This document shows, piece after piece, positions 505 to 31,600 of a stretch of DNA of 64,000 bases. Below the pieces are notes generated by a model that did not search any database, was not told where the DNA came from, and worked only from the letters and a program-made list of their open reading frames with translations. Position numbers and translations under genes: made by a program. Each line of letters starts with the position of its first letter. The first letter of the stretch is position 1. The DNA comes from Echinarachnius parma (taxonomy: Eukaryota > Echinodermata > Echinoidea > Clypeasteroida > Echinarachniidae): contig JBAMJV010001834.1 of the NCBI GenBank assembly GCA_037951105.1, positions 91,001 through 155,000 of the forward strand, given 5' to 3'.

Positions 505-2961
505 GTAAGTAGAAACACAGACAGGCACACAGACATACAAACCGACGGACAGATAGATAGATGCATATATAGACACACATATTGACAGCCATACGGACAG
601 ACATACAGACAGACAGATAGACATACATACATACATACAGACAGATATACCAACAGATAGACATACAGACAGACAGATAGACCAACATATCAAGGTTCAA
701 GGTTCATTTTATTTCTTTTTTTCACAAAAACATTTGTACAAAGAATAATAGAATAATCAGCAAAGATAAGGTAAATTTGAAGTACAATATTTAGTCAATA
801 TACAACCCAAACAGGTTTTTCTAAACAAGTAATGAAAGAAAGAGGAGACCTTAAAGAAGCTGGGCTTGTAAGAGCAAGGTCCCCAAAGAAAATATAATAC
901 ATGTTTTAATTACTTTGAAACATTTTAAAAAGTAAAACTACCTTATAAGACTAAAAATGATTAAACGTGGGAAACATATAGAGAGATAGACAGACAGTCA
1001 GACAGATACACAGTCACACGGTCAGACATACATACAAATCTCTAAACGAAATGCAAAAGTGTGCATTATGAAATTGCTGGGCATTTTTAAAATGTCTATT
1101 TATACATTGAATGAAGAGAAACGCTGCTGAAAATTGCTTATTTACCATGAAAGCTTGTGTGTAACAAAATGAGAGTCAATATAGAGCAAAACATGCATTG
1201 GGCCATGGTAGCTTCTAAAATGACCAAACATTAATGCCTGTTGACATGGATCAGTTATCTATTAGCGTTTTCTGTATTTGTTTTCCATAACAGTATGGAG
1301 GTAATCCTGTGTCATGTGCGGTGGGCCTGGCTGTTTTGGATGTGATTCAAAATGAGAAGCTGAGAGAGCACGCCGTAGAGACCGGAGATCTCCTTATGAA
1401 GTCGCTCAGGAAACTTGCTGAGAAATATGAGATCATCGGCGATGTTAGGTAAAACAATTGCCTAAGAACAACCAACAAAATAGTTGAAGTTTGCTACTTT
1501 AGAAATATATTTTCACAATTTATTTTAAGTGTTCAATTAAAAGGAACATGAAATTTCTCTTTCATTTGAGACATACGGTTGGTCTACCTTATATGTTCAC
1601 ATTTTATCATTTATTCTATTAGCATTGCAATTTTTAAAAGGAAAAATAGAAATTATATTACATTATGATATTATGTTATTAAGTAATTAAGTTATGCAAA
1701 TTGGCAACTTTGCAACAGGTTTTTTTTTTTACTGCTGAATATTAATAACTAGAAACTATCCACCCTTGTTTGTGTAAAAATCAAGAGAAAATAAGAAAAT
1801 GCCTGTTTGATGATCAAAACTACGAGAGCCTTGCAATTAGAAAAAAAAACATCATATGCTATTAAATAAATAAATTAAATGTTGCATTAAAAAAAATATA
1901 AAACTACTAATATCTCTGACAGGAAAAAGTGCAAACTTACAGTGTATTATGAGTATTAAATGTTGGTTAATGTTATCCTCTCTTGTTCACAGGGGCTGGG
2001 GAATGTTCATTGGCGTTGAGCTGGTCAAAGATCGCACCACCAAGATGCCTGCCCCTGCAGAGGCCTCCTACATCATTCAAAGGTAACAATTATGATGATT
2101 ATGTCGATGACAACAACCATGATGATGGTGGTGATAGTGATTATGCTGCTGCTGCTGATGATGACCTTTGAAGGTTTCCATAGTGATAGATGACTTAATT
2201 GCACCTTATTTATCCAATATCTTTTCTTTGAAGAGTAGTGGTCCTCAGAATGCCCCACTCTGTGGTAAAGATTTTGATCAGTATATTCTCCTGCTGATAG
2301 TCAGAACAGGTTGATTGAATAGACGAGAGTAATGAGGACTCTGAGAGAGAATATTGGACTTGGTATACCACATGTTTAAAACAAAATCATGGTTATTGTT
2401 TAGGGTTGGAAGTTGAGATTTTTTGAATATTTTATTGGATGCTTTTTTCCTTCAAAATTTGCCATCAGATTACGTGACATGAAGATCCTGTTCAGCTCTG
2501 AGGGCCCGTTTGAGAACATCCTCAAGTTTAAGCCCCCGATGCCGTTTGATGCTGGCAACGTCAAGCAACTCGTGGATGCGCTTGCGACCACCTTCGCCGA
2601 AATCAAGAAAATGGCTGCTCCACTCGAACTCCCAGCCAACCACCACCTTCGACTTCCAATCTGGCAGGCCCGCATGATGGGGCATGACCTTGAAGAGGAT
2701 GAGGAGGTAACCACGGCAACGCTGAATGGAAACAACAACAGAAGTGCTCGTCTTTCTAGTGGGAAGCGCAAGATGTCACGCGATTCACCCCAGTCGCCCG
2801 TGATGTCGTCCGGCCGAGGTTCACTCGCTGATTCGTCGGAGGGGAACTCCAACCATGTGATCAGCGATGAGGAAGATGATGATGCGGTTGTCGTGGTTAC
2901 AAAAAAGAGAAAAATGGTGGAAGTGGAAAGAGAGATTGATCCCGTTGACATGTTAGACTAG
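380..2961 (+). CDS. ETNPPL: ETNPPL/PHYKPL-type PLP-dependent phospho-lyase, last four coding exons (5' partial)
   Basis: Joined coding exons are 380-504, 1294-1448, 1993-2082 and 2469-2961 (about 286 residues plus stop TAG at 2959-2961). All introns are GT-AG and phases match. The motif [11 protein letters not shown] places the PLP Schiff-base lysine of class-III aminotransferase-fold enzymes at codon 409-411. It is followed by [20 protein letters not shown], then [17 protein letters not shown] and [12 protein letters not shown], all typical of the ethanolamine-phosphate and 5-phosphohydroxylysine phospho-lyases. Members of this family cleave phosphoethanolamine, or phosphohydroxylysine, to an aldehyde, ammonia and phosphate. 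The N-terminal half lies upstream of the window. After the enzyme domain (about 2620) there is a tail of about 110 residues with acidic clusters (EEDEE, DEEDDD), SP sites and basic KRK clusters that resemble nuclear-localisation signals. ETNPPL and PHYKPL cannot be separated safely from this half; the basic tail is closer to what is known of vertebrate ETNPPL. Family call firm, paralogue call moderate. Confidence 0.88.
515..680. repeat. Degenerate ACAG/ACAT/AGAT tetranucleotide repeat in intron
   Basis: Runs of ACAG, ACAT and ATAG units directly after the donor of the first exon. A shorter, similar patch lies at about 980-1035. Confidence 0.85.
691..950 (-). mobile_element. Probable 3' end of a 5'-truncated non-LTR retroposon
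   Basis: On the minus strand the segment ends in AAATAAAATGAACCTTGA, followed by a second copy of the heptamer ACCTTGA. This is the usual architecture of non-LTR 3' ends (A-rich signal plus short terminal repeat). No coding part is left. Inference from structure only. Confidence 0.4.
1294..1448 (+). CDS. ETNPPL: ETNPPL-like exon
   Basis: Acceptor CATAACAG ends at 1293 and donor GTAAAA starts at 1449. It starts in phase 0 with [16 protein letters not shown], which continues the FNT of the preceding exon, and ends within the arginine codon of GDVRG. Confidence 0.9.
1993..2082 (+). CDS. ETNPPL: ETNPPL-like exon
   Basis: Acceptor TTCACAG ends at 1992 and donor GTAACA starts at 2083. It encodes [20 protein letters not shown] and ends in a split arginine codon. 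A short GAT-rich repeat follows in the intron (about 2090-2165). Confidence 0.9.
2469..2961 (+). CDS. ETNPPL: ETNPPL-like terminal exon with long charged tail
   Basis: Acceptor GCCATCAG ends at 2468. The exon encodes [20 protein letters not shown] and KPPMPF, which closes the enzyme domain. About 110 low-complexity, highly charged residues follow, with SGKRKMSR (near 2758), DEEDDD (near 2866) and KKRKM (near 2902), then stop TAG at 2959-2961. The tail is unbroken despite its composition, which argues that it is really translated. Confidence 0.9.
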
Positions 2962-3168
2962 GAGGACTATTAGTCATCTGAATAGAGAGCAAATGGTTAT
3001 CTGTCAATTATAGGATTATTATTGCAATGAACATGTAATGGATTGAGTACAATTTCTGACAACAAGAGCAAAAAATGATGATGTGGTCATCATGATTAGA
3101 ATAATAGGAAGATGGAGGAGGAAGAGTGAGTTAATATAGATGACTCGGGCAAGAAAATTGCAGTGTCC

Positions 3169-3174
3169 AATAAA
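3169..3174 (+). terminator. Candidate poly(A) signal of the ETNPPL-like gene
   Basis: AATAAA about 210 bases after the stop codon, the first canonical hexamer in the 3' flank. Its use is not shown by sequence alone. Confidence 0.45.
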
Positions 3175-3649
3175 GCATATATTTATATCTGCCTTAAATG
3201 CAAATTTGTTATGCTTTGATAGCAAAACTTTTTTCTTGTGCTATTTCTGGGAGAAATTAAATTGTCAAGCATTCAGACTTATGGATTTTCATTTATGGAT
3301 TGATTAACCTTTCTTATCTTTACTGTCCCATCCCCCGACATTACAATGAGCTAGTCAAGCAGATTATAGTATTGGATAAAAAAAGGGGTCACTATCAAAA
3401 ACCAAAGAATTATTTTTCAATGGGACTTTTAATTTTGTTTATTTTAAAGAATTATGTCTCCCAGTAACTAACTTGTGCAATTGTTATTAAATTTCAAACT
3501 GAACTTATTATTTACATTGCCTATTTTTTGTCTTTATAACTTGGAAAAAATGCAAATATTTATCACTATTGCATGATATTGAATACGCAAAAAATGAAAA
3601 CTATGCTTTCATCATCTACCACGTGAAAAATATATCATAACTTAGATGT
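3175..3649. other. Intergenic DNA, no gene seen
   Basis: AT-rich, with no coding similarity and no clear repeat structure recognised. Confidence 0.6.
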
Positions 3650-4225
3650 TTATGGAAAGATTTGGACAAAAACTGCTTTGAAATTGAGTAATTGAGCATT
3701 TATTGGTTCCAAAATAAAACGAACGTTGTCAAAGTCCGATTTAACCGCATACAGAAATGCGTATGAGGCTACGTGCAAAAGACCATGCGGTCCCCATGCA
3801 GTATGTGGTATGCGGGCTTGTCGATATCTCCATCCCAGCGCTAGCGGCGCTGACAGGTGCGAACGGGCGGTGGATTTATAGCCAAATTTTATGGGCAGCC
3901 ATTGTATTACTTTCAATATTTCTACATTTAACAATACTAAGGTTTGGATTTTACCACACAAGCCCTTTTTATAAACTTATTCAACGATATTGATCAATTA
4001 GTTTGGCCAATAGCGCTAGCGGCGCTGACAGGTGCGAACGGGCGGTGGATTTATAGCCAAATTTTATGGGCAGCCATTGTATTACTTTCAATATTTCTAC
4101 ATTTAACAATACTAAGGTTTGGATTTTACCACACAAGCCCTTTTTATAAACTTATTCAACGATATTGATCAATTAGTTTGGCCAATATAGATGTTTTCTG
4201 TAACTTTCCCAATACTGTTTATATT
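3650..4225 (+). repeat. Dispersed repeat family I, copy 1 (with internal tandem duplication)
   Basis: Contains words shared in the same order with 32690-32990 and 58815-59205: a start like AAAACTGCTT.GAAATTGA, a centre like GCGAACGGGCGGTGAATTTA, and an end TTGATCAATTAGTTTGGCCA. Copies differ in length and by many substitutions. No terminal inverted repeat or coding frame was recognised, so the class is unknown. Confidence 0.75.
3837..4186 (+). repeat. Tandem duplication, 175-bp period, two near-identical copies
   Basis: Copy 1 is about 3837-4011 and copy 2 about 4012-4186. Both begin AGCGCTAGCGGCGCTGACAG and end at GTTTGGCCAAT. They look essentially identical, so the duplication is recent. 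Other family I copies in the window lack it. Confidence 0.95.
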
Positions 4226-7140
4226 TACACTGTATTGTTTTCACATAAACTCTTAGTCATCACATGTATGAACTAGTCATATAACAATGGTACTCTGTCA
4301 AATTAAATTGTAAGAATGCACTTGACCAAGTTCTTCAGACAGGTTTACATGAATATCTTAATCCCTCATTTATCTACAATGAATAGAAGCTTGGGTAAGA
4401 ATTCAAGTGTCTATTACGATGGCTTTTAGGCATATATATTGTGTGGATTAAGGAACAGATCACTAGATGTGATTCTATGAGTATTGTGACTACAGTTGAC
4501 AATGGCGCTCAGAGGGTTTAAGCATATATCATTCATGTGTAGAGTTATATTGAGCTATTCACTGCACTGTATGTATCATCGATACATAATATTTTACATT
4601 TTATATATTACAAAACACTTGTTTGTATGCATTGACATGTATAATTCTTGTTTTATGTAATGAGTATATATCAGATTATATGTACATGAATACACACACA
4701 TAATATTATTCATGTAGAAATGAGATTTCATCTAAAAATACATCAAGGCATGAGCATATCTAGAGTGACATATTTAAGAGTAATGGCAAATGTGTTGAAA
4801 TGGCGACTATGTTGCAATCATATGTGATTCCAAAGACCAGTATGATAATGATGAGTTTACTTTATATTATTTATTATTTGAAAAAAACTCTTAAATTAAG
4901 GGTTTATAAAAAGCTTTTAAAATTAAAAACAATAGCGATAAATGAAATTAAACATTCTTACATATGTTCATATACACTACACAATCTGATCTGACAAACG
5001 ATGTATTATACATGCTTTAAGTACACACATCTTGCTTAAGTTCTGAACACATGTCATACATGTGGTTGAATTCATTTTGTTGAATGTACATTGAAAATAT
5101 ATAACATATGACATGTTTGTTAGATACTGTTCTCCTTTTGCAGACATAATTAAGTTCAGTAAAACATTATACATACCTGTAAACATCCAGTTAGTGACAT
5201 TTGAAAGGATTCAAATGATACTGGAAACAAAAAAACACTTTGTAGTCTTAACTCTTGGGTTCATTTTCTTTTTACTCTGAATATAGGTATCATGGATTAT
5301 TTATCCCTTTTTTCAAGTTCAAAGAAAATGTATCTTTGTACCTTATAAATCTGAGCACCTTGATTGTGTTTGAATATAAAAGTAAATTGCATATTGTGCT
5401 TGTGAGAATCATGGAAAAATGCAGATGCTAGACCAATTGATTTATCGTAATGACATTTTATTTTTTCAAGATCTAAATTTCAATATAATTCCACAAAAGG
5501 GTACTTTAAAATCCTAAACTTCTTTAATAGGCTATTTCTCAAATTGTATTTCCTTTGATATATAATATTAATCTTGCATCTTTAGAATTTGGGCTTGCAA
5601 AAGGAGGGCAGTATCTTTGAATAATTTTGTCAAATAATTTTGTCAAATCATATAGATTATGACTATTTCTTTGAAAATATGCTGTGAGTGTCATAGTGGA
5701 TTTTAAACTGTGTGTGCCATACAAATTTTTTAATGCAATTTGAAAATACATTTATAAATGACTTTGTTATAAAGGGATTACTTTCTAAGAAGGTGAATGG
5801 GTTTATATTTCTTCATTCTTGAAGGATAAATATCAATTCATATTCATTTATGAAATTTAATTGCTTCATTTATATTTGCATGTTGTGTGCTAGAGTTATA
5901 AAGTTGGCCTCTTTTTTAAAATAAATGAACTAGATTTGCGACTTTTTTCAGTTATTACTTCATTTTTATAAGTTTTAAGTTAATGTATCATTGTATTTAC
6001 TCCTACATTCAATATGAGTATGCGCGATAGATGCTGTTTCTGAACGCGAAGTTGATATTTTATTCGCTGCACACAAGAAATTTCGAGATTTTCTCTGCTT
6101 GCTGCGATATATCGCAGTTGCGATCGATAAGAGGATCGTTAAGTGATATCGTTATCGGAGCTGCGCTGACAGAATGATTGACAGGTGATCTTAAAAATGA
6201 TTCCCTGGCGATGTAGAAATACTTTCAGGATCACAGACTTATTTTGTATGTTCATTTGGGATATGTCTTTGATGTAAGAGAGCTAAATCTCTGTCTGGTG
6301 GTACCCTTTAAGCTTTTCTGGAATGAACTTATTTTTACCACTTGGATCAAATTAATTAGTCTTTTTACTCAACTGGTTGACAAAGTTAATTAAAATTAAA
6401 AATGAGTATAAAAGAATTTACAATTAATAATTAGAAATGTTTCATAAAGGATTTGTTTACATTAACAAATGCCAGTTTTGTGTAAATGTATAAAGTGTGT
6501 GTTGAAGGGTAAGACATCGAGGATAAAATCGTCTTTATAAAGATGCAAATCATAATTCCCTTCATTTTGGAAGGAATATATTATTTTGATGTAACACATA
6601 GAGATAAATAAGATCTTACAGTAAGATCAAACTACATGTGTACTAGAAAACCAATTGATCTTTAATTGGTTAAATTAATTTATTAAGCATTCATTTTGAA
6701 GTGAACTGGATGCAAGAGGGCATATAGCCTGTCATAACTTTCTTACAATTAAGATGCATTGATAATGGTGCTAGATGTAAAGTTTTAGCAAGGAGGTATT
6801 AGAAAGTCTATCACTTCCTTGGTTTTAGTAGAATTATTAGAACTTTGCATATGATCATCTAGTATCTAGATGACAATAACACAAAATATATGTTATAATT
6901 GAATAAAACTGAGACATAAAAGGTATAAAAACTACATTCTAAAGATGTGAATTCATGACTTAGCTGAAAAGTCTTTTAAACCAAAAAACGTTTTTATCGT
7001 TATACTGAATCAAATTAAATGGAAAGGGTAATAAAGAAAAAGACTGGTCACATATTCAAAATGTCTAATATGCTTCTACATTTTCTGAATATTGAATAGA
7101 TTGAAACAATAATAGATTGTGCTCATCTTTAATCAGATGT
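4226..7140. other. Intergenic AT-rich DNA, no gene seen
   Basis: No exon with splice sites, RNA gene or convincing repeat boundary was found. A GC-richer patch at about 6010-6310 contains nested short palindromes (for example TGCGATATATCGCA near 6105) and ends in GGTGGTACCCTTTAA. That end resembles the 26.4-kb TTAA element, so it may be a decayed relative. Confidence 0.6.
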
Positions 7141-17726: not shown

Positions 17727-17890
17727 TCAGTTCAACTTGCTGGCAGACTTGCGCCCACCCTCGACCTCAGCGTCGCGGTTTGCCTGGTTACGCTTGGCTG
17801 CATCCATGGTGTTCCGCATCAGCATAGCAACCGTCATGGGGCCAACACCGCCGGGCACGGGGGTGATGTAACTAGCCTTCTGAGATACCT
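17727..17890 (-). CDS. MTHFD2: MTHFD2 exon 6 and stop
   Basis: 164 nt, acceptor TGTTACAG. It encodes [19 protein letters not shown], then a short basic tail ending SASKLN and TGA at 17729-17727. Confidence 0.95.
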
Positions 17891-20800
17891 CTGTAACAGA
17901 AAATACAAATGCAATTTCAGGTTTTTAAAACAAATACTTTGAAGGTGAAAGGTTTGACTAAGAGCACTAATACTAGAGGAAAAGAGGAAAGATTCCTGTG
18001 ATATAAAATCTACATGGTATCTTTATCATCATGTGCAAACACATCAGTTGGATGGGAATATTATATGTACATTTATAATTATGTGAGAATTATTTTAAAC
18101 ATATTATTGAGAAAACATTTTTAAAAGAGAACTAATGGTTTGGATGAGCGTTGTATGTTAGGGATTCATTATAAGTCTACTACAAAAAAAAAAAATATAT
18201 ATTTTCAATATTTTTGTACATTTTGTACTAAACATTTGTTATTACCAGGCGATTATATACATGCGTCAGCTGATATTCCGCCAGTGAAATAAACAATCAA
18301 TTTCAATTTCAGTAACAATGTTCCTAAGTAAGTACCCCTTTTTCTACAGACTATGGTCGACTTACCCAAACGTTAAAAGTGCTTTTAAAAAGTTGTTCAA
18401 GATGGTTGAGCAATGCATTTACAAGCAGAAATGTAAGAGCAGATGCACAGATGAAAATTCATTGTCACAAAATACTTTCTTACCAGCATAGTCGACATCG
18501 CCGACCAGCTTGAACTTTCCAGTTGCCTCATCCTTGACCCTGTTGATTCCAACATCGATGACCGCCACTCCGTCTTTCACCATGTCTCCTGTGATCAGGT
18601 TGGGGATCCCTACGGCAACGACAATGATGTCGGCAGCTTTTGTGAAACGCACCAGCTCGTCCATTGGTGTGTACCTGTGGCATAACGTGACGGTTGCATC
18701 CATCCCCATCTTATTAGCTATTTAAACAAAAGAAAAAACACACACAAATTTTGTTTGAATTTAGTTACTTCCTGAGGAAAATCCAAATTGATTTTTGGTG
18801 GGCTACTTTTCAAGCTTGCCTGCATGAAAATAACTCTCTTGAATTTGTTGTGCATTGACGGGGACTCTTATGATTTCCTGGGGCTCTTTTTGGCATTTAG
18901 GGGGTGAATTCACCCTGAGCCCGGGCCCATGCATTTTTGACACTGGTACTTCACAATATTTAGAGACAAATACCTCAAAGCCCCCATGAATTTTGTTTCC
19001 TGTTTAAACAAATTCGGAGAGGTGGCTCAATCAAACTTGATAATGATAAATTATAATGTACTAATTGCTTTATGCATAACTGCACACGTCCACTAGAGAG
19101 CTTTATGCACCACTAAGTGCAATGGCGAGGCAGCAATATATCATGTTTATTCTTATTGCCCAGTGTTTTGTGTTCTGATGTGGTTATATTATTCAGTGCA
19201 TGACCTAATTTTAATTGCCATTCAACTCATCTGATAATTTGAATTGCAATGTAACATTAGCCTCATAATATTTTATTTCTTTTTAGATTAAGAACATTCT
19301 AGAGAAGTAGAGCATGATAATAAATGTAATTGGAATAATAGGAATAATACAATTTTTAACAGATAAATGGCGCCATACAAGTGCTGTGGATCATCATTAT
19401 CATCATCATAATGCAACATTTCCATGTATTCCATGTTTAAATGTAGCTGTTCTGTACAAAATACCACTATTAAAATGACCTTAGCTGTAAAGGGGCCCTA
19501 AAAAAGCGGGAAAAGGCGGAAATAATCTTTTTAGATTGGACGGACTATAAACCAAGAACAACAACAACAGCCCATCAAGCATTCAAGGAATAAATTCCTG
19601 CCAGGTCCCCATTTAATGCACCTGGGTTGAGTGCAGCAGTGTGAATATAATGTCACGCTGAAGGATATGAACGAAGGACATGTCTAAACTTTGTGACTTG
19701 TGTAACGTTTCTGGGAACAAACAGGATACACATAAACCAATATTAGGCAATTGTGATTGGAATGTTGTCTTTAAAAGATAAAATATTCAAGCAGAGATAA
19801 ATGGTTGAGCCAAATAGAGCCAAATTGTATAAGAAATGGAGTGGGTGGCTTGCATGCTGCGTTGTGTGAAGTTGGTTTTTGTCTACCTGGTCTGAGGTTG
19901 CCTGACATAGCAGCTATTAATGTATGCAAGGTGCATTCTAAGTATTACAGGATAATCGAGAAGCCAGGTTAGCAGGCAATAAGTATTGAACATGTTAGTG
20001 AACTAACTGGTCTACTGAAAATTCTCACAATCTTTTCACAATGAAAGTAATGCACTACCTTTTTTAAAAACATACTTTGATCAAAAGATAAATTGTTACA
20101 ATATCCACAAATAGTTACAAATAAAGCACATTTATGTAATTTTCAAATTAAGAATTTACTTACTGTGTTTGCCATCCGAGTTCAGGAGAGTTGCAATGGG
20201 CATTCCCACGTTTTTCGAGCGGCCGCAAACAACTGCATTCTTGCCAAATGTTTCAACTCCTGTAATAGAAAAAATACAAATCAGACGTTTCTAATGAGGA
20301 ACTCGGAAAGGGTGGCAATGCTCAAAAATTGCTGATTGATTTTAAAAGCATTCTCATCATCTACATTACCATTATGAATCAACGTAATACATTTGTTTAA
20401 TACCAACATTACCTCACCACCTCCTGACCAGCATAATAACATCATCATCACCAAACAATAGTTACATTACTCTTATCAAGCGCTCAAAATTAGCACAAGC
20501 CGCTGGCCCTGGGACACAGAGTCAAAAAATTAGTTTTGGACTTTTGGACCACCAAATTCATTGGTGCTAAATTCCACTGGCCCAAATGGGCAACTACATA
20601 TAACATAATTGTTACTGTGTTTCTTTGTTCGGGGTCACCAGATTCAGGTTTTCGGGCCACAAAAACAAAAAATTTAACTTGCGCTACTGTGCCATGAGGC
20701 AAAAAGTACATTTCTTGCATCTACAGTCTAATCAATTTAACTCTCCTCTCAATCTATATGCCATTTATAAGGCCTGGTAATAAAACAGTAACTACCTGCC

Positions 20801-23800
20801 GATACCGTTGCTATCCAGCATCTTAACCCACTCAAGACTGGTCCCCAAAATACTCGGGCTAGGGTCAATGGAAAATAGGTGTTCTAACAAGTTCAACTCT
20901 TCTACAATGGGTTAAACACATTGTTAAACATGGTCAGTCTACCTGATCGTTTGAGCAGCTCCCAGATGCCATAAGGCGTGGCAGGGATAATGGAAGGCAG
21001 ATCAAGGCAAAGTCGTCCAATGTTGGTCATGTTGAAGCCATCCACATCCTTCTCTGGGATGACCGAGTCGCAGATGGTTCTCTCATCCATGTGCTCCGGG
21101 ACGGGCAGCTGAACGAGGATGCCGTCGACATCGGGGTCATTGTTGAGGTCATCGACGATGGCTAGCAGCTCCTTCTGGGATATCGTGTCTGGCTTTCGGA
21201 TGGTGGTAGAGATGATTCCTGTAAGAAAAGAAAAACATTTGAGCAAACATGACATTCAGCAACTAGAATTCTGATTTGCAACCTTTGATATCAGGGAATT
21301 TTTTTTAGGGAGTCACTTTCAAGCTCACCTGCATGAAAATTGCACTTACTAATTTTTTTTGCATGGAACTCTATGCAAATTTATGGGGACTCTTTTGTTT
21401 GTTGTTTTGTTGTTGTTGTTGTTTTTTTATTTTATTTAAATTTTTTTTTTTTTGGGGGGGGGGGTTCTTTTGGCATTTCGGGAGCTTAATCACCCTGATC
21501 ATGTTTTCCCCCTACTAATATCTTATGCTAGTGTGACACTTCTCCGCATTTTGGATTCCGCATGGTTTCGCATGTGCCGAGACATGCGGGAAGGATTCGT
21601 GGCCCGAATCGTCACGTCATGTTTCCGCCATACTTTGGCACTCTTTACGCATTGTCCCACCATATTTACGCCATCTTTCCGCATTCGTCATTTTTCCAAC
21701 TGGTTCACCGTTGATTGGTCACAGTTTAGCAATCGAAGGTAGAAGTGAGAAGTGAGAAGTGAGAAGTGAGAAGTGAGAAGTGAGAAGTGAGAAGTGAGAA
21801 GTGAGAAGTGAGAAGTGAGAAGTGAGAAGTGAGAAGTGAGAAGTGAGAAGTGAGAAGTGAGAAGTGAGAAGTGAGAAGTGAGAAGTGAGAAGGAGGAGGA
21901 GGAGGAGGAGGAGGAGGAGGAGGAGGAGGAGGAGGAGGAGGAGGAGGAGGAGGAGGAGGAGGAGGAGGAGGAGGAGGAGGAGGAGGAGGAGGAGGAGGAG
22001 GAGGAGGAGGAGGAGGAGGAGGAGGAGGAGGAGGAGGAGGAGGAGGAGGAGGAGGAGGAGGAGGAGGAGGAGGAGGAGGAGGAGGAGGAGGAGGAGGAGG
22101 AGGAGGAGGAGGAGGAGGAGGAGGAGGAGGAGGAGGAGGAGGAGGAGGAGGAGGAGGAGGAGGAGGAGGAGGAGGAGGAGGAGGAGGAGGAGGAGGAGGA
22201 GGAGGAGGAGGAGGAGGAGGAGGAGGGGAGGGGGAGGAGGAGGAGGATAATTCTTAAGATTTCCCTCTTTTTCACTTCAAATTAATTTCTCACATCTGAT
22301 AACTAAAAGATCTTTTAAATTACGAAACTGCAAACATGACATAATTGTGACATACTTGTGTCAAGCCTGTTGACTAAACTCACTGATAAGGAACAAACAT
22401 GAAGATAGTTGGGTTATGCTATCGTTGTGAATTTACTCACAGGATGAGAGCAAACATCAAGCTCAGTTCTCAGTTTACATAGAGATATTTCAATAGCGAT
22501 AACAATCTAAACATATTGCAACCATTCACACTGTGACAAACTGCACATGGGCAATTCCACCATAACGGAATTACATTCAGAGACGTTTTTTGCTCATTAT
22601 TTCATTCCCTGCGCAATATTCTCATGACTTAAGTAAATTTTGATACTTACATAAGTTGTACGGGTAACCAGGCTACAACATGATAGGGAAATGGTTTTAT
22701 ATCTTCCATGTGTGTTTGCACACTAGACCAATATGTGTGACCGTAACGGAATTACCGGAGAATGGAGTTTTTTTTTTGCTACAAGTTTGCGTTGAGTTTC
22801 TCTGAAATATAAGACACTTTGAAACTGATTTTATGTATTTTTTGTATCTTGATAATGTCAACTTCATTTTGGAACAAGTACGTGCATAAACAACACAATG
22901 ATAAGTTCACAAATTCACTTTTTTGAAAAAAGACCACTGTAACGGAATTACACAAATTTGTAACGGAATTACATCTCTGAAAGTTACAAGGAAAACTCAA
23001 TTATTTTGCACTCAACTTTTCTTACATGCTAATGCAAACATCAAGGCTATCTAGTACTTGAATATAAACCATAATTTGACATATCTGTAAAGCAATTTTT
23101 GAACTTGTTATGTGTAAAATAAATGAAAATATGGCCAAAATACAAATAAGAGTGAAATTTGAGAAAAATATTGCTAAACTCCAGCTTTATTTCGGTTTAT
23201 TTTCAGCTTTATATTAGTAGGCAAGAAATTAAAAAGGATTGCATCAATTAAATGAAAGAAAAATCCTAGAAACTATGTCCACTAAAGTGTGTAACGGAAT
23301 TACACAACTTAAGCAGTGGGATCAACTTTTCCACAAATCGGTACATGAACAACAACAAATTCACATTTTAGCTTCAATACTTTTCAAAAATCAATAATTT
23401 GACAATAATAACCATATTTGAAGTAAAAAATAGCAACATTTTTGAATTTTTCCTTTACTTCAAGAAAAATGGTTAAATTGTGGAAAAAAAACAAAGTAAA
23501 AAAAAAAAAACGTACCTACATTATGTGACATGCTAAAGAACTTGCACATCATCAATATCAAGAAACATTTAAACAATTTAAAATCACAAACAGGTCAAAT
23601 AATTCAACTTTCAATGCTATAAAGCCTCGTAAACTTCCTGAATATTGGAAATCTGTGTGAATGGAAATGCATTGTGAATGGGCAATTCCACTGTTACAGA
23701 ATGACATATAAGTGATTTTTAGCTCTGTTTTCTTAATCATATTTAAAATTCCTTTCACTTCCACCGTTTTTACAACTTTAATAACTGGCAGGGGTACTAG

Positions 23801-26800
23801 AAGTACAAATCTATAACACTGTAGCGTCAGGAGACCAAAATACAATCATAACGGAAAGGGGTCTTTTATTCAACACTAACTTTGTAATGATTTTCTGCAA
23901 AAGCTACCACAAAAAATTCTTCATTGGTAATAAAAACTTATCAGTCAAGTTACAAACTTGAATTTGGTACATCTTTTTTCCAGAAATGATCTATTTTAAC
24001 CTCTGAAATTATCTTAAGACAAACGAATGTCACTGTAACAGAATTACGCCTGTGAAATCCACCCATGAATCCACCCATGAAAATGCAATTTCTTGGTTAC
24101 ATTTTTCTGCGTACAGTCTATAGTAAAGAATTTGTATGCATTGTTAATTTGTATGCATTGTTAAACAATGTATGCATTGTTAAACTCTTACATAAGGACC
24201 AGAACAAATGCTGAATTTATGTGTGTGCGTAACAGAATTACAAACAAATCGAGATTTGTTATATAAACTCTTGTTATATTCTAAAATTATTCTTTTAAAA
24301 AATTCATCCTAAAGTGATCTTAATTTACTCTCAAATCAATTTAGAATGCGTTTTCATTCATTTCATGAAATACATGTACGGATATAAACATGTATGAATG
24401 ATCCAAATACAAAAAGTTAGCATATATAAAATATAAAAATCGAATTGCAAAAAATGAAAGACACCTTTAGGAATTCCCATTTGAAAATGCAAATACTTTG
24501 TACATCTTCTTTGATCTGCATACAGAAGCACACTGAACACTCAATGAATTCTGACTTTATGATAATGAATAAAACATATCTTAGCCTATATTATGTAGTT
24601 TTGAATATCTTGAAGCCTATTCTGTATTTATGTTTGATTATAATATATGCTTCAGTTTAATACAAATTTACATAATTAATGGTGAGTTATGAGCCCTTAA
24701 CTGATCAATGATATTCAAATCTACATACAAAATTATTAATATTAAATCTCCTTGAAAGTCCAAGGTATGATTTATATCTTAAAATACATCAATGTAAATT
24801 AATGTGAGAAAATAAATGTAGAACCAGTGTCATACTAATTACTGGATATTTTTACATTTTTGTTATTGTTTTCGTTTTTCCCTTTCTAAAGTACAAACAT
24901 GAATCTGCTGCATCTTCATAATTTCAGTCAAGTGGGTCTTGCTGGAAACTAATTTAATGATAGAACATTATCATCTCTATTATGTTCATGGAGAAATTAG
25001 AGAAAATATCTATCGTGTATCAATTTAGTTAAATCACCATTGATGCAATATGAAGCATGTGAGGTAATGAGTCACATAAAGTAACATTGTACAGTACATG
25101 TATGTATAATGACTTATTGTCTACAGGGCTACAGTTCATGCTATTTAAAGGGTATTTCTACATTCAGAACAAGAAAAAATTTTATTTTCAGCAATATCAT
25201 TCAATACCTTACAAACCATGTGCATGTAATTCCGTTACGTAACGGAATTACTAATACTGTTACGCCATTTTTGGAAAAAGTAGTGACATTATTTCAGAAA
25301 ATTATGTTGGAAGTTCTTAGGACTATGGTGAAGGAAGAGAATTCACAATGACATGACTAAAGAACAAGTAATAAGATATTGAGAAAAACTTTAAACGTTT
25401 TATCGTAACGGAATTACGATCAAATGTGCATAGATTTTAAAAATTTCTCAAAAAAATATGCAATGAAGTTACTGCCTATGCTTTACAATTTGTGATTGTT
25501 ACAACATCGTATGGAAAATATGAGAAAATGAACAGAAACAGTCATTGAATTAAAAGATTCACTTTATTTTCACAAAATGAAGCTGATTTATGAATAAAAG
25601 GTCATAAATTTCTGTTCAATTCAAGCAGAAATATTTGAAAAACCAATCAAGCTATATACAAACGGTTTTCAGTTTCCTAAAATTCAAGTTTTCCTCTATT
25701 GATAACAGTTTGATTTAGGGAAGATTGCTCAACTTTGAGATGTGGTGTTTTTGCCTTCTCTCATACGGAATTGCCCACATGTATCTGTATGTTAATTAAA
25801 CACATTTGTTTCTAAAGAACACCTGCCCATTAAAGGGGTATTCCGGGCCTGAAAAAACCATTCGTTATTTGAATAAGCAGAATAAGAGGCATAATTGGTG
25901 AAAATTTGATCAAAATCGGACAAGAAACACGGGAGTTATACCTATTTGAACATCATGTAGTAATGAGCGATCGTTTCAAAATTGCCGCCATATGCAACAT
26001 CATTGACGAGCAACTCGCCATGGCTTTAGTACATGAAAATACACTTATTTCTCATTTTTGTTGCTAAAAATTAATTTTTCTCTGCTTGTTTTCACGAATT
26101 CATATAGAATATCGATGGGCCAACCTCTTTGGAATTTGTAAGCTCATAAATTTGCTTTGTTATGAAGAAAATTTAAATTTTGTAAAATGTCCATGTAGAA
26201 GTCAAAATGGCTGCAGCTCGCAAGTGACGTCACGATCGATAGCAATTGCGAACGATACTAAAAATCGGAGCAAAGTTCATCCTGTCATAACTTTTTTATT
26301 GCTCTACCGTTTTGGCTCAGATTTTCGATCATGATTCTTCATATTCACTTCATTTTATAGCAAACATCACATTTCTGGGGTGGAATTCCCCTTTAAAACA
26401 AAACAAAAAACATAATGACATTCTCTCTATTAAAACTTAAAGGGGACCACCAGGCAAAGAACAAGTCATAATTATACGTTTTGGTACCCTTTTGTGATAA
26501 CAAATATGTACCCAACATTTTTCAAAGGATTGTAGAATTCATGAACAATGCGATTTATTACCACCGCTTACGGAACCACTGCTATTTCCTGGTTCCATAC
26601 TCGCCAAAAATTTGCGAGTGCGCCAATCCTATTCACGCGTACGTTTGGAGACAATGAATCCCCACGTATACCCACGATGCGCTCTGCACGTTCGTTCTGC
26701 ACAAAGGTAGTCTTCGTTCAAGGGAACCCATACGATTATGTTGTAGTATGGTGATGCGTTTTCCAATTAAATATTTTTCTGGAAACATATTTATCTGAAC

Positions 26801-28652
26801 TTGTTGATGGAATAAACTACTAAAGATGTTATAAATCTTTGATTAATAAGAATATAATTTGTGGGTGGTGGTACCCTTTAATAGTCAAAATCAGACTTCA
26901 AATTAAACCCCAATTTTCCAGAATAATTGAGTGGCCCGATTCATGATAATGATAATGAGTTAAAAGAGCAAATGCACTGATGGAATTTATAATTGGAAAT
27001 CTTGATTAAAAACTTGAAAACCTCAAATAACTCACTGTGCATCAAACTAAAAATTGCATTATATGTTTTGTTCAGCTGCAGTTCAGTACATACATGTACT
27101 AATTGAATATGTTGTTCCTAATAATAACAAGGAGCCTGTGACTTAGCATTACTGTGACCATGATAAGTACCTTGTGGTCAGGTATACATCTTGCTACATG
27201 TATATCAGGATTATTCAGAGCTGGTACCACCCTACCAGCACAATTATTTGTTTGATATACGTATGTATGTGAGCTCTTAATAACAAGGTTGACCATGTGA
27301 TTCAACTTTACCAATTTACCAATTCAAATTTACCAATTTACCAATTCAAATTGACATCTTTGATGTCCAAGAATAATTTAGGCATGTTTATTCACTGTAA
27401 TATTCAAATAATACAATCCAAACTTTTGAAACTCCAAAATTGCATGTGTGTGAACATTCCCTTTCTTGTTCGATTACATGTGAGTCACACACCTCATTCA
27501 GAAATTTTCCATTCACCCATTCTGAGTGGACTTTGCACCATCATGATAAGATCCCAGACTCTCTACATCCACTAGCATTAACTGCTATCATGCCATAGAT
27601 ATTGGCGCTCTATGAATATCTGTGTGTATACTGTGGTGGAAATATACACGTATGTGTATAGAACTGTACAAGTTAAAGAGGCATGAATTGAAAGAAGTGC
27701 CTGCTCAGCACTATAGATACAAAAAAAAATTCATCAATGTCAATATCCAATTTTCAACCAAAAAAAACATGCTAAAAATAAAATTGAAATTTGTTCACTA
27801 GTCAGAAATATTATAGAAGAAGTTTGTTCATCATCTTTCAAGAGTCCTGAGCTTTGGATCCTAGCAGAATCATTTATTTGTGTTCACTGATGTGGAGTAA
27901 TGGAAAAGATTTCCATGACAAAAGAACCTATACATACTATTTACACTGGTTAGACTGTAGTGTACAGTGCATTGGCCTGACAAATACTTGGGTTGCAATA
28001 TGGTGATGGAAAATACCCAACACTTCCTTGTCAAAAGCTCTATTTCATTTCCTTATTTTTATTACAAGTACCATATTTTCATCTTATTAAATTTTCCTGT
28101 TGATATTCCTTTTTTGTCATATTCTCTTCCCTTTTCTCAGAGTGCATTTCTTCTTTGTATCATTTTAACTGTTTTGCATCTTTATGTACTATCTAGATAT
28201 TAGGAAACAATTTATATACAGTAGACAATTCACTTTTTAACATTTATTTATACAATACATGTACAAACAAAACTCACACATAAATATGACTACATATTGT
28301 ACCCATTATACAATAATACACTCAAAGAGACTGTAATTTGACTGACAAAGCAAACATACATTACACATATCTGCATGAAACCTAATATAATGTAAGTAGT
28401 AATCTATTGCTTTTATGGTCATCCATTGTTAGAACAAAGGAAATCTGAAATTAATATTGAATACAAATATGAATTATGAATGATGGATTATGGATATGAA
28501 ATATGAATTATGGATATGAAATATGAATTTCATATTTCCTTTGTTCTAATGTACAGGCTATATATATGTTTTGTTTGCTAGCAAGTACAAGCAAGTACCG
28601 TAAAACTCAGTGTATAAGACGCACCCGTGTATAAAACGTACCCCCAACTTTC

Positions 28653-28690
<38 letters not shown>

Positions 28691-31600
28691 ATTTTTTGGA
28701 ATGCTTATTAAATACCACTGGTCTAGGGCATGCCAATAGCTTAATGTTGAATGTAGCATTCATCAACATCATTTTCTCACATAAAAATAGTGGTTAGTAC
28801 ACAAATTGCACATTTATTGAGCAGTAACTCTGGTGCTCATAAATATTCATATTCATGAGCACCAATACTCACTAAATATAATGCAATTTTCTAAATTTAC
28901 TAACAACTATTTTTAATTATGAGCAACATTTTTAACCACTGGTTAGAAAATTGCATATTTAATTAGTACTGCTGCTCACGAATGTATGAATATTCATTAG
29001 CAACAGTATTACTGCTCAATAAACTTGCAATTTTTACATCTGTAACCAATATTTTTTATGTGAGAAAAAGGTATATCTTGCTGAATGCTACAACTGATAG
29101 CAAGCTCTTGTCATGCCCTAATTACAATTGTAAGTGATATTTATTCGTACTGTATGATTTGTATGTTATGTATAATTGTGATATTTGTTTTACTGATTTT
29201 GACTTTTGCACACATTTGTTTAATGTCCGGCAACAAATTTTATGTTATTGTATTTTAACGTGACAATAAATTATCTATATCTATATCTATATCTAAACCA
29301 TGTGTATACACCATGACTACAGGGTGTCAAAAAAAAAAAAGTGCGTCTTATACACGGAGTTTTACGGTAAGTACAAATTATTTCCTCTCCATTTTTGGTG
29401 GCATGAAAAGGCATAGTACAGTTTTGGTTTAGAGGGCGCTTCAAGAAATAATTAATTTGTGAGGGAATGGAATAGTAAGTGTAATATTTGAAAGAGCACA
29501 TGATTTTAAGATATAAAAAACAAACTTTATTTATTGAATTATTATTTTAACAAAACATCATTCACAATTTGTAATTTAAATTTTTGTTGAAAAAAATGTT
29601 TTAAAAAGCGCCCTCTTGTGTTTTATCGCTGCTTTTTAAATGATAACAGCATTTTAACTTAGCGGTTTGCAAGTTTTTCTACCTTTAGTGCATGGTGGAA
29701 TTAAAACTAATAGTTTTGTAGTGATGTGGTGCAAGTTTTTGTTATTTACATTCAGTTTGACCAAAATTGTACTATCCCTTTAATAGCTCAAATTACACTT
29801 CATTTGTCCAACTGTCCCACTGGGAAAAAAAATATCTTGTCCCTTTAATGATAAATACATTTTGTATGAATTGTTGCTGGTCCACAGTGAATGTGCACTG
29901 GCCCTAAGCCAATGTTTGTTTCACGTACAGACATAATCTACTTTAGGCAGAAGAATGTTAAAACCCACTTAGTGCATAAAGTACTTTGTGCTTCTGTAAT
30001 TATGTTTTCTCACAGAGGTGTCGATCTGTTCGGAAAACACAATGCATTGGGGGGGGCGAGCATTGTTTGTGAACAATAGCTCGCCCCACCAATGTATTGT
30101 GTTTTCCGAACAGATCGACACCCGTTTTCTCATTCTGTAATTATGTTTTCTCATTAAATAATTCAGTTTGATAGTAGGTTGACCCAGTTCATGGCTGAAG
30201 TTTATTTTGTTCTTCCCAGATCAAAGAATAGGTGTTAAAATAGCTGTTTACCTGCTTTTGCTGCAGCTTTAGCCTTGTTCTTCACATACACTGTGCTTGC
30301 TGCATTATCTCCTACAAGAACAACACTCAGCTGTGGAGGCCTGTTGCCCGCGGCAACCCATTCATCATTCTCCTCTCGGATCTCCCTCAACACATCTTCT
30401 GATATCTTCTTGCCATTGATGATCTGGGCTGCTGTTTGTCTGCAGGAATCACAAGATAGGAAAGGGAACATTACAATACTTAAAGTAGCACAGGCCCGCT
30501 GGCCCAGGGCCACCAAATGACATCAATGTTCAATTCCACTAACATTTCTTTAAATTTGATTGGTCCTGTTGTATAATTTGAATGATTTCATCCTTAATCA
30601 TTCAAACTGTTTGAACTGAACATCCAAACATGTGCATTCATAGTTCAATGATTCAGATTTCAAAGTCAAATCAATCCATCAATGACTAATCTGAGAGACT
30701 ACTATCGCTCATTTAGGTTGATGTGATGACTTCCTTGTTAAATCCCTAGATAAAGCAGGGCTCCACAAAAACACAAGTACAAAGTTAAATGTCGGTGGCT
30801 GATTGACTGGTTGATTGATTGATTGATCGATCAATTGATTGATAAAAAATGTATTTACGATTGAAGTGTTCCGATGCTAAACTGTCTATGGGATATTTTA
30901 AGCTGTGTACAAAGTGCAATGAGTTAGTGAATATCACTTTGCATCTTTGCTCATTTCTCGGCCAAAAAACACCAAATAAAGACGAAATATTCACACATTA
31001 CTTATGGACATATCAGATCACACCAATACACATTTTATTAATCACTCATCATCTTTTGAATCAAAGATTTGCCGATCCGATTTTCGATCCGATCATGCAT
31101 AGCAATTAGCATCATCATCATCATTCATGTTTTGGCGCTAATGGGTACCCCTTTTTTTAATTCAAACTTTTATTTTACCGGCCGCAAAGTGCGAATATTT
31201 TAACGCCGCGATGCAACCAAAACCATTCATTAAAGACTCACCAAAAATGGGCTTGGATACCAAAATATCACGACAGACCATCGAGGGATAAGAAAACAGT
31301 CAAGTCAAAACTCAAAGTGATTGATACTTGTAAATTAATTTGTATCATGTATGTGTTTAAAGTGGAACAAGTTTGAATAAAAAAGGGGTACGAAACTGCA
31401 GCGCCTGCACATGTACATATTTTCATTCTGTTTTATTCAATTTCTTAATCTTATGAGAGTTCTGCAAGAATACTGCTGCTAAAACAGCTAGCTGCTGCAC
31501 TTTTGCAGCTGGAAAGACAACTTTTAAAATTTTTAAATGTCAATAATCCACAACTCACAGTCACACCACAAGTTCACAATTTGACAATTAACTCAACAAA

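Follow-up and report, generated by a model that had tools for sequence, protein, structure and literature searches.

The intron block and its motif sites

The window analyzed here, a stretch of 64,000 nucleotides from Echinarachnius parma (assembly GCA_037951105.1, contig JBAMJV010001834.1, positions 91,001 to 155,000), contains an MTHFD2-like gene with a block in one of its introns in which a 13-bp motif, GTAACGGAATTAC, recurs with spacings from 21 bp up to about 1 kb. This block looks like a non-autonomous DNA transposon, with the motif forming its spaced subterminal repeats. It displays class II traits, namely terminal inverted repeats (TIRs) of the sequence GGGCAATTCC at both ends and a target-site duplication (TSD) of a fixed 4 bp, and it belongs to one (F1) of at least four sibling families, F1 to F4, that share TIR and TSD length. 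The parts of the window element, including its ten motif sites, here termed iterons, are as follows.

22545..22548: left TSD, ACAT
22549..25776, plus strand: whole element, family F1, 3,228 bp
22549..22558, plus strand: left TIR GGGCAATTCC, 10 bp
22562..22574, plus strand: iteron 1, ATAACGGAATTAC, 14 from the left end
22743..22755, plus strand: iteron 2, 195 from the left end
22939..22951, plus strand: iteron 3, 391 from the left end
22960..22972, plus strand: iteron 4, 412 from the left end
23291..23303, plus strand: iteron 5, 743 from the left end
23680..23689, plus strand: internal TIR-like copy, followed by a degraded iteron (23693-23705, three mismatches)
24035..24047, plus strand: iteron 6, GTAACAGAATTAC; the F1 copies L010, L011 and L012 have the exact motif at this site
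24229..24241, plus strand: iteron 7, GTAACAGAATTAC
25226..25238, minus strand: iteron 8, head to head with iteron 9, 539 from the right end
25239..25251, plus strand: iteron 9, 526 from the right end
25405..25417, plus strand: iteron 10, 360 from the right end
25767..25776, minus strand: right TIR GGGCAATTCC, inverted
25777..25780: right TSD, ACAT

With up to two mismatches allowed, GTAACGGAATTAC was found at 10 sites in the window, all of them within 22562-25417, seven exact and three with one mismatch. Shuffling the window 100 times gave a mean of 1.74 matches and a maximum of 6, and the exact motif, observed seven times, was absent from 300 Markov-1 resamplings. The initial annotation, made from the letters alone, had reported about nine copies, and every position it gave holds (22563 being 22562). 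The inverted borders it described are likewise present, with TGGGCAATTCC at 22548-22558 and, inverted, at 25767-25777. A direct copy of TGGGCAATTCC inside the block, at 23679-23689, had been absent from its list; a 30-nt match of 83% pairs 22547 with 23678, and the internal TIR-like copy and the degraded iteron behind it probably represent an earlier left-end copy. The window element is 97.7% identical over its full length to another F1 copy (C24, L010). As no stop-free frame above 95 amino acids occurs inside the window element, we read it as non-autonomous.

That the sites are not tandem, as also claimed at the outset, is borne out by both the array finder and the flank comparison. Tandem Repeats Finder reported short arrays between some of the sites (e.g., 24129-24183) and none over them, and flanks shared between sites seldom reach past the motif. 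That the block arose from one longer unit, as a satellite or a now decayed tandem array, is hardly credible, because the intervals do not align as units and the copies are dispersed in the genome with TIRs and TSDs. What could be said for it is that partial duplication has happened: in addition to the left-end-like copy inside F1 (23679), the F3 element in L009 (3484-5976, read reversed) has a left-end site block at 1-420 and a second, diverged block at about 600-1010, the latter, about 600 bp inside, with 82-85% identity over 45-54 bp.

The placement of the block in an MTHFD2 intron finds support in minus-strand matches to the Pfam family PF02882 and in a comparison with PDB sequences, with two of the four exon-like pieces recognized by eye only:

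17730..17924 (open-frame limits), minus strand: C-terminal MTHFD2-like exon, PF02882 E 3.3e-14, above cut-off
20159..20290 (open-frame limits), minus strand: MTHFD2-like exon, PF02882 E 3.9e-6, 26.7 bits, just under the 27-bit cut-off
20930..21250 (approximate limits, near 21.1 kb), minus strand: MTHFD2-like exon, peptide recognized by eye only
30200..30435 (approximate limits, near 30.3 kb), minus strand: upstream MTHFD2-like exon, peptide recognized by eye only

Compared with 25 PDB sequences, cytoplasmic and bacterial relatives among them, the frame at 17730-17924 matched mitochondrial bifunctional MTHFD chains best. The gene lies on the minus strand, and the element sits in the intron between the exons at about 30.3 kb and about 21.1 kb. 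Just before the element, at 21741-22247, a long AGAAGTG array passes into about 120 units of a (GAG)n array.

Sibling families across the genome

The genome searched comprises 1.2 Gb in 14,790 contigs, and the places inspected were the first ones listed for each search; families beyond the end and motif patterns used may exist. A genome-wide count of GTAACNGAATTAC, as proposed in the initial annotation, gave 7,465 copies compared with 325 for the reversed control. The first 100 places listed form 12 clusters on 12 contigs, and all 100 lie within TIR-bounded elements. Seven of these 12 fetched elements are F1, the window family, and five constitute the second family, F2. In all of them GGGCAATTCC bounds the element in opposite orientation (with one mismatch at the left end of L018); the left end of the C15 copy lies outside the fetched stretch and was placed from a separate left-end search. 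The clusters thus do share TGGGCAATTCC-type borders, which are TIRs with 4-bp target duplications. The motif, then, is not equally frequent in random intronic DNA, nor are its intervals those of one decayed tandem unit, the two outcomes set beforehand as counting against it.

Of 20 elements measured, 19 are flanked by an exact 4-bp TSD (17 in a set of 18, and two further F4 elements, with TACA and with TGTT read off), the sole miss being L052, whose left end has diverged. Many duplications are rich in AT (ATAT, ATTT, ATTA, ATAA, TTTA), others, such as AGCA, CAAG and CTAT, are less AT-rich, and ACAT and TAGT also occur. For two insertions into F1 copies the window provides the empty site: where an F3 element has entered copy L009 the window keeps a single TAAA, and where an F4 element has entered copy L060 it keeps a single TACA.

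The four families are distinguished by length and by a 5-bp segment, N5, within their motif.

F1: about 3.2 kb, motif GTAACGGAATTAC, N5 = GAATT
F2: about 3.86 kb, motif GTAACGGAATTAC, N5 = GAATT
F3: about 2.5 kb, with additional 2.15-kb and 0.78-kb forms, motif GTAACGGAAGGAC, N5 = GAAGG
F4: 2,013 bp (one copy, measured without insert), motif GTAACGCCGTGAC, N5 = CCGTG

All family motifs fit GTAACG-N5-AC, so that the four families use three N5 codes. The F3 motif GTAACGGAAGGAC occurs 8,935 times in the genome (control 44) and the F4 motif GTAACGCCGTGAC 3,121 times (control 7). Position 14 is the least strict site, reading ATAACG in F1 and CAAACG in F4. Searches for the ends yielded 2,191 left ends of the F1-F3 type, 594 ends of the F4 pattern (among the places listed all but two F4-like), 841 F1/F2 right ends and 1,297 F3 right ends, with no match to any reversed control; five more ends are one-letter relatives of these. 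Manual sorting of the first 100 F1-F3-type left ends listed assigned 35 to F1, 10 to F2 and 55 to F3, and for 86 of them a partner right end lies no more than 30 kb away, although one pair, at 27.6 kb, is probably spurious. Shortened and composite copies were met as well: L058 and L059 are 0.78-kb F3 forms, L060 is an F1 element with a nested F4, and L061 is an F3 copy with an insert.

A further insert, resembling a miniature inverted-repeat transposable element and with ends CCGTGTATAAGACGCAC, lies in the F1 copy L011 (about 3603-4195). In the window, a tandem pair of GTGTATAAAACGCACCC at 28610-28643 is similar to these ends.

Site spacing, spacer divergence and a proposed function of the motif

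The sites of the four families fall on what we term a ruler. Measured in one element per family (the window for F1, L017 for F2, L009n for F3 and L060n for F4), the left positions are 14/195/391/412 in F1, 14/192/392/412 in F2, 14/193/390/404 in F3 and 14/194/391/405 in F4, corresponding to intervals of 181/196/21, 178/200/20, 179/197/14 and 180/197/14, respectively. At the right end, each family has a site at 360, and F1, F3 and F4 have another at 524-526 and a third, inverted one at 539-547 (with two mismatches in F3 and one in F4), while F2 combines the site at 360 with three inverted sites at 515-549. The last site lies 360 or 361 from the right end in seven of seven F1 and seven of seven F2 elements.

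The DNA between these sites has largely lost its resemblance from family to family. Across the left 770 bp of F1 and F2, 64 of 65 motif positions and all 10 TIR positions agree, compared with 338 of 672 spacer positions (0.50; shuffled 0.44). Across their right 600 bp the values are 34 of 39 for motifs and 281 of 541 for spacers (0.52; shuffled 0.46). F1 and F3 agree over the left 420 bp at 32 of 39 motif and 160 of 351 spacer positions (0.46; shuffled 0.44), and F2 and F3 at 151 of 364 left spacer positions (shuffled 0.43). Between families, spacer DNA is thus close to random while motifs and TIR persist.

From the observed anatomy, target duplications, empty sites, copy numbers, geometry and motifs we infer, with considerable though not full confidence, a non-autonomous transposon whose motifs are sites, set on a ruler, for a protein supplied in trans, with N5 codes that are probably matched to cognate proteins. 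Near the ends of the element, the 13-bp motif would be recognized by the DNA-binding part of a transposase, or of a protein partnering it, and the element would have been moved most likely by cut and paste. The ruler sites (left 14, about 193, about 391 and about 408; right 360 and about 515-549) could assemble an asymmetric end complex for excision. Changes in N5 would accompany changes in the DNA-binding part of the protein, such that specificity diverges between sibling families. The initial annotation had suggested that a protein, encoded by the element or by the host, binds the motifs. This suggestion gains support from the TIRs and TSDs, the confinement of the motifs to elements and the kept positions of the sites, with a protein of either origin as the putative binder.

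Several observations weigh against this transposon reading. Six of the 100 F4 motif places listed stand alone on their contig, so that confinement of this motif is incomplete; these lone places may be fragments. Of the first 100 left ends, 14 are without a partner. The spacing is not rigid: the last site of L052 is at 349, and in two of seven F2 copies (L016 and L018) the distance from site 2 to site 3 is reduced by 10 and 20 bp. The geometry obtained by script for F3 and F4 comes from one full-length element each. In forced right-end alignments the motifs of F1/F3 and F2/F3 align poorly (0.59 and 0.55), and for these pairs the right-end position therefore rests on coordinates. No transposase was recognized in any element read, the elements being sampled from the first-listed contigs. 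In addition, right-end spacers retain ungapped identity, 0.435 for F1/F2 against a null of 0.290 and 0.391 for F3/F4 against 0.304, which suggests that the ends probably derive from one ancestor whose lengths were retained better than its sequence; the shared geometry could thus partly reflect plain descent. Constraint inside families, finally, is seen weakly. In 33 F2 right ends, compared without requiring an exact motif after removal of L046 (no TIR) and of three duplicates, non-CpG changes affect 5 of 1,426 motif and 169 of 18,764 spacer positions (p 0.025; a superseded count with that requirement gave p 0.001). In F2 left ends the numbers are 6 of 371 and 123 of 4,741 (p 0.30), and in F1, where most copies had been chosen by motif, 0 of 581 and 172 of 8,654 (p 2e-5).

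These last two points are what a purely historical account would build on, namely that the ruler was merely inherited from one ancestral element and that the motifs survive without function in young families: the weak register identity of right-end spacers makes common descent likely, and weak constraint is what such families display. We consider this account very improbable, because neutral drift would be expected to spare neither motifs nor lengths, whereas F1/F2 left spacers have fallen to 0.50 alongside a motif agreement of 64/65 and an intact 10/10 TIR, and spacer lengths stay within a few bp across the four elements compared.

Somewhat less remote, yet still unlikely, is the idea that the motifs are captured sites of a host transcription or silencing factor, serving expression or repression instead of transposition. 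In its favor, sites set about 165-200 bp apart and spread over hundreds of bp are widely spaced for an end complex. Against it stand the location of 100 of 100 listed F1/F2 motif places inside elements and the fact that families place motif variants of their own at nearly equal distances from the TIRs, a pattern that a fixed host factor would leave unexplained.

Within the transposon reading, we tentatively envisage an address system, a possibility we rate at somewhat under even, in which a constant frame GTAACG...AC and a 5-bp family code are set on a fixed ruler. The specificity of the reader protein would have changed at least twice, creating separate mobilization channels with TIR and TSD length unchanged. 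The spacing of the ruler is roughly nucleosome-sized.

TIRs of another sequence (TACCGT..CTAC.CCAGTAACGGATCAC) mark a fifth family, encountered in L014 (about 2708-3712), L066 (42-3238) and L067 (48-2921). Its ends have 274 matches in the genome (control 0), and three copies show no clear TSD. In L014, GTAACGGATCAC occurs at 17, 197, 219 and 549, i.e., at intervals of 180, 22 and 330 compared with 181, 21 and 331 in F1. This family may be distantly related and use the same ruler.

Coding remnants and comparison with known transposons

The initial annotation had proposed looking for a linked, transposase-bearing relative, and none was found among the elements read. F2 contains a coding remnant of about 129 amino acids (L017, 3798-4187, minus strand, about 1.1 kb from the right TIR). 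Stops interrupt many of its genomic matches, which number at least 151 with 150 of the 407 candidates scored. In Pfam it gave two weak matches below cut-offs (E 0.027 and 0.045) and none above. A longer version exists in L052 (..WVVVQYCKENNAKKLIGQV..VKFLKQ..YVWPVVDD), and no longer gene surrounds the remnant in the L052 fragment or at the further loci. L065, a 7-kb F4 copy, carries a 5-kb insert (761-5756) that has its own inverted ends and in which no frame exceeds 119 amino acids, its pieces not having been run against Pfam. L062, considered as a relative, has one TIR-like end without an iteron set and is probably unrelated. DUF7869 (PF25273) was considered, as a guess, for the partner protein; the two 6.5-kb loci read (L063 and L064) are without GGGCAATTCC, one mismatch allowed, and without an iteron set, one of them containing a stray single GTAACG, and these loci therefore lend the guess no support. 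DUF7869 genes are multi-copy, many split in two pieces, with 66 matches in the genome and none among the fetched elements looked at.

As no transposase was found in the elements read, no superfamily is assigned. CACTA/EnSpm does not fit the GGGCA termini and the 4-bp TSD (instead of CACTA and 3 bp). hAT elements produce 8-bp TSDs, whereas in 17 of 18 elements here the flanks agree for 4 bp and no further. piggyBac and Kolobok target TTAA, at odds with the varied duplications found (ACAT, TAGT, AGCA, CAAG and others), and Helitrons are without the TIR and TSD present here. Tn7-type ends, which carry spaced, asymmetric sites for an end-binding protein, are alike in this arrangement, but they are bacterial and spaced far more tightly. 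Among the matches listed in a literature text search for the TIR and motif letters, there was no transposon paper by title and neither 13-bp motif.

The 4-bp TSD fits Sola2 by length only. Sola2 elements have AT-rich 4-bp TSDs and short TIRs, those described measuring 12-13 and 21 bp, unlike the shared 10-bp TIR here, and the portion of the source available to us describes no iteron ruler for them (PMC3627910). A Sola2 transposase on a copy with the same ends was not recognized in the elements read, no Sola2-aimed query having been run. In the hAT element Hermes, the DNA-binding domain of the transposase binds subterminal repeats and the ends are asymmetric, but, according to the part of that work available, its sites, 4-bp motifs of the AAGT type, cluster close to the tips, unlike those of F1-F4 (PMC10368747).

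A close likeness is to plant CACTA elements. In En/Spm and Tgm, short motifs are iterated asymmetrically near both ends of complete and defective copies, and between CACTA families the TIR is conserved while the subterminal motif diverges. A co-diverging TNPA-like DNA-binding partner was proposed, the co-divergence of repeat and protein being left to later genome analysis, as far as the available part of the account extends (PMC2613891). The elements described here share the iterated, asymmetric subterminal motifs and the TIR that is kept while motifs differ between families; unlike CACTA elements, their TIR starts with GGGCA, their TSD is 4 bp instead of 3, and the families have a common ruler with sites spaced by about 180-200 bp. 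The intron block is reinterpreted as a transposon and not as host regulatory DNA. Four sibling families with shared TIR and TSD length, nearly equal geometry, three codes and about 2,800 left ends amount to a natural experiment in one genome, which would make it testable how end recognition shifts its specificity and why spacing outlasts spacer sequence. Judged against the accessible portion of the CACTA literature (PMC2613891), the principle is known from plants, and what is new is that code and ruler separate so cleanly, in the setting of an animal-type gene.

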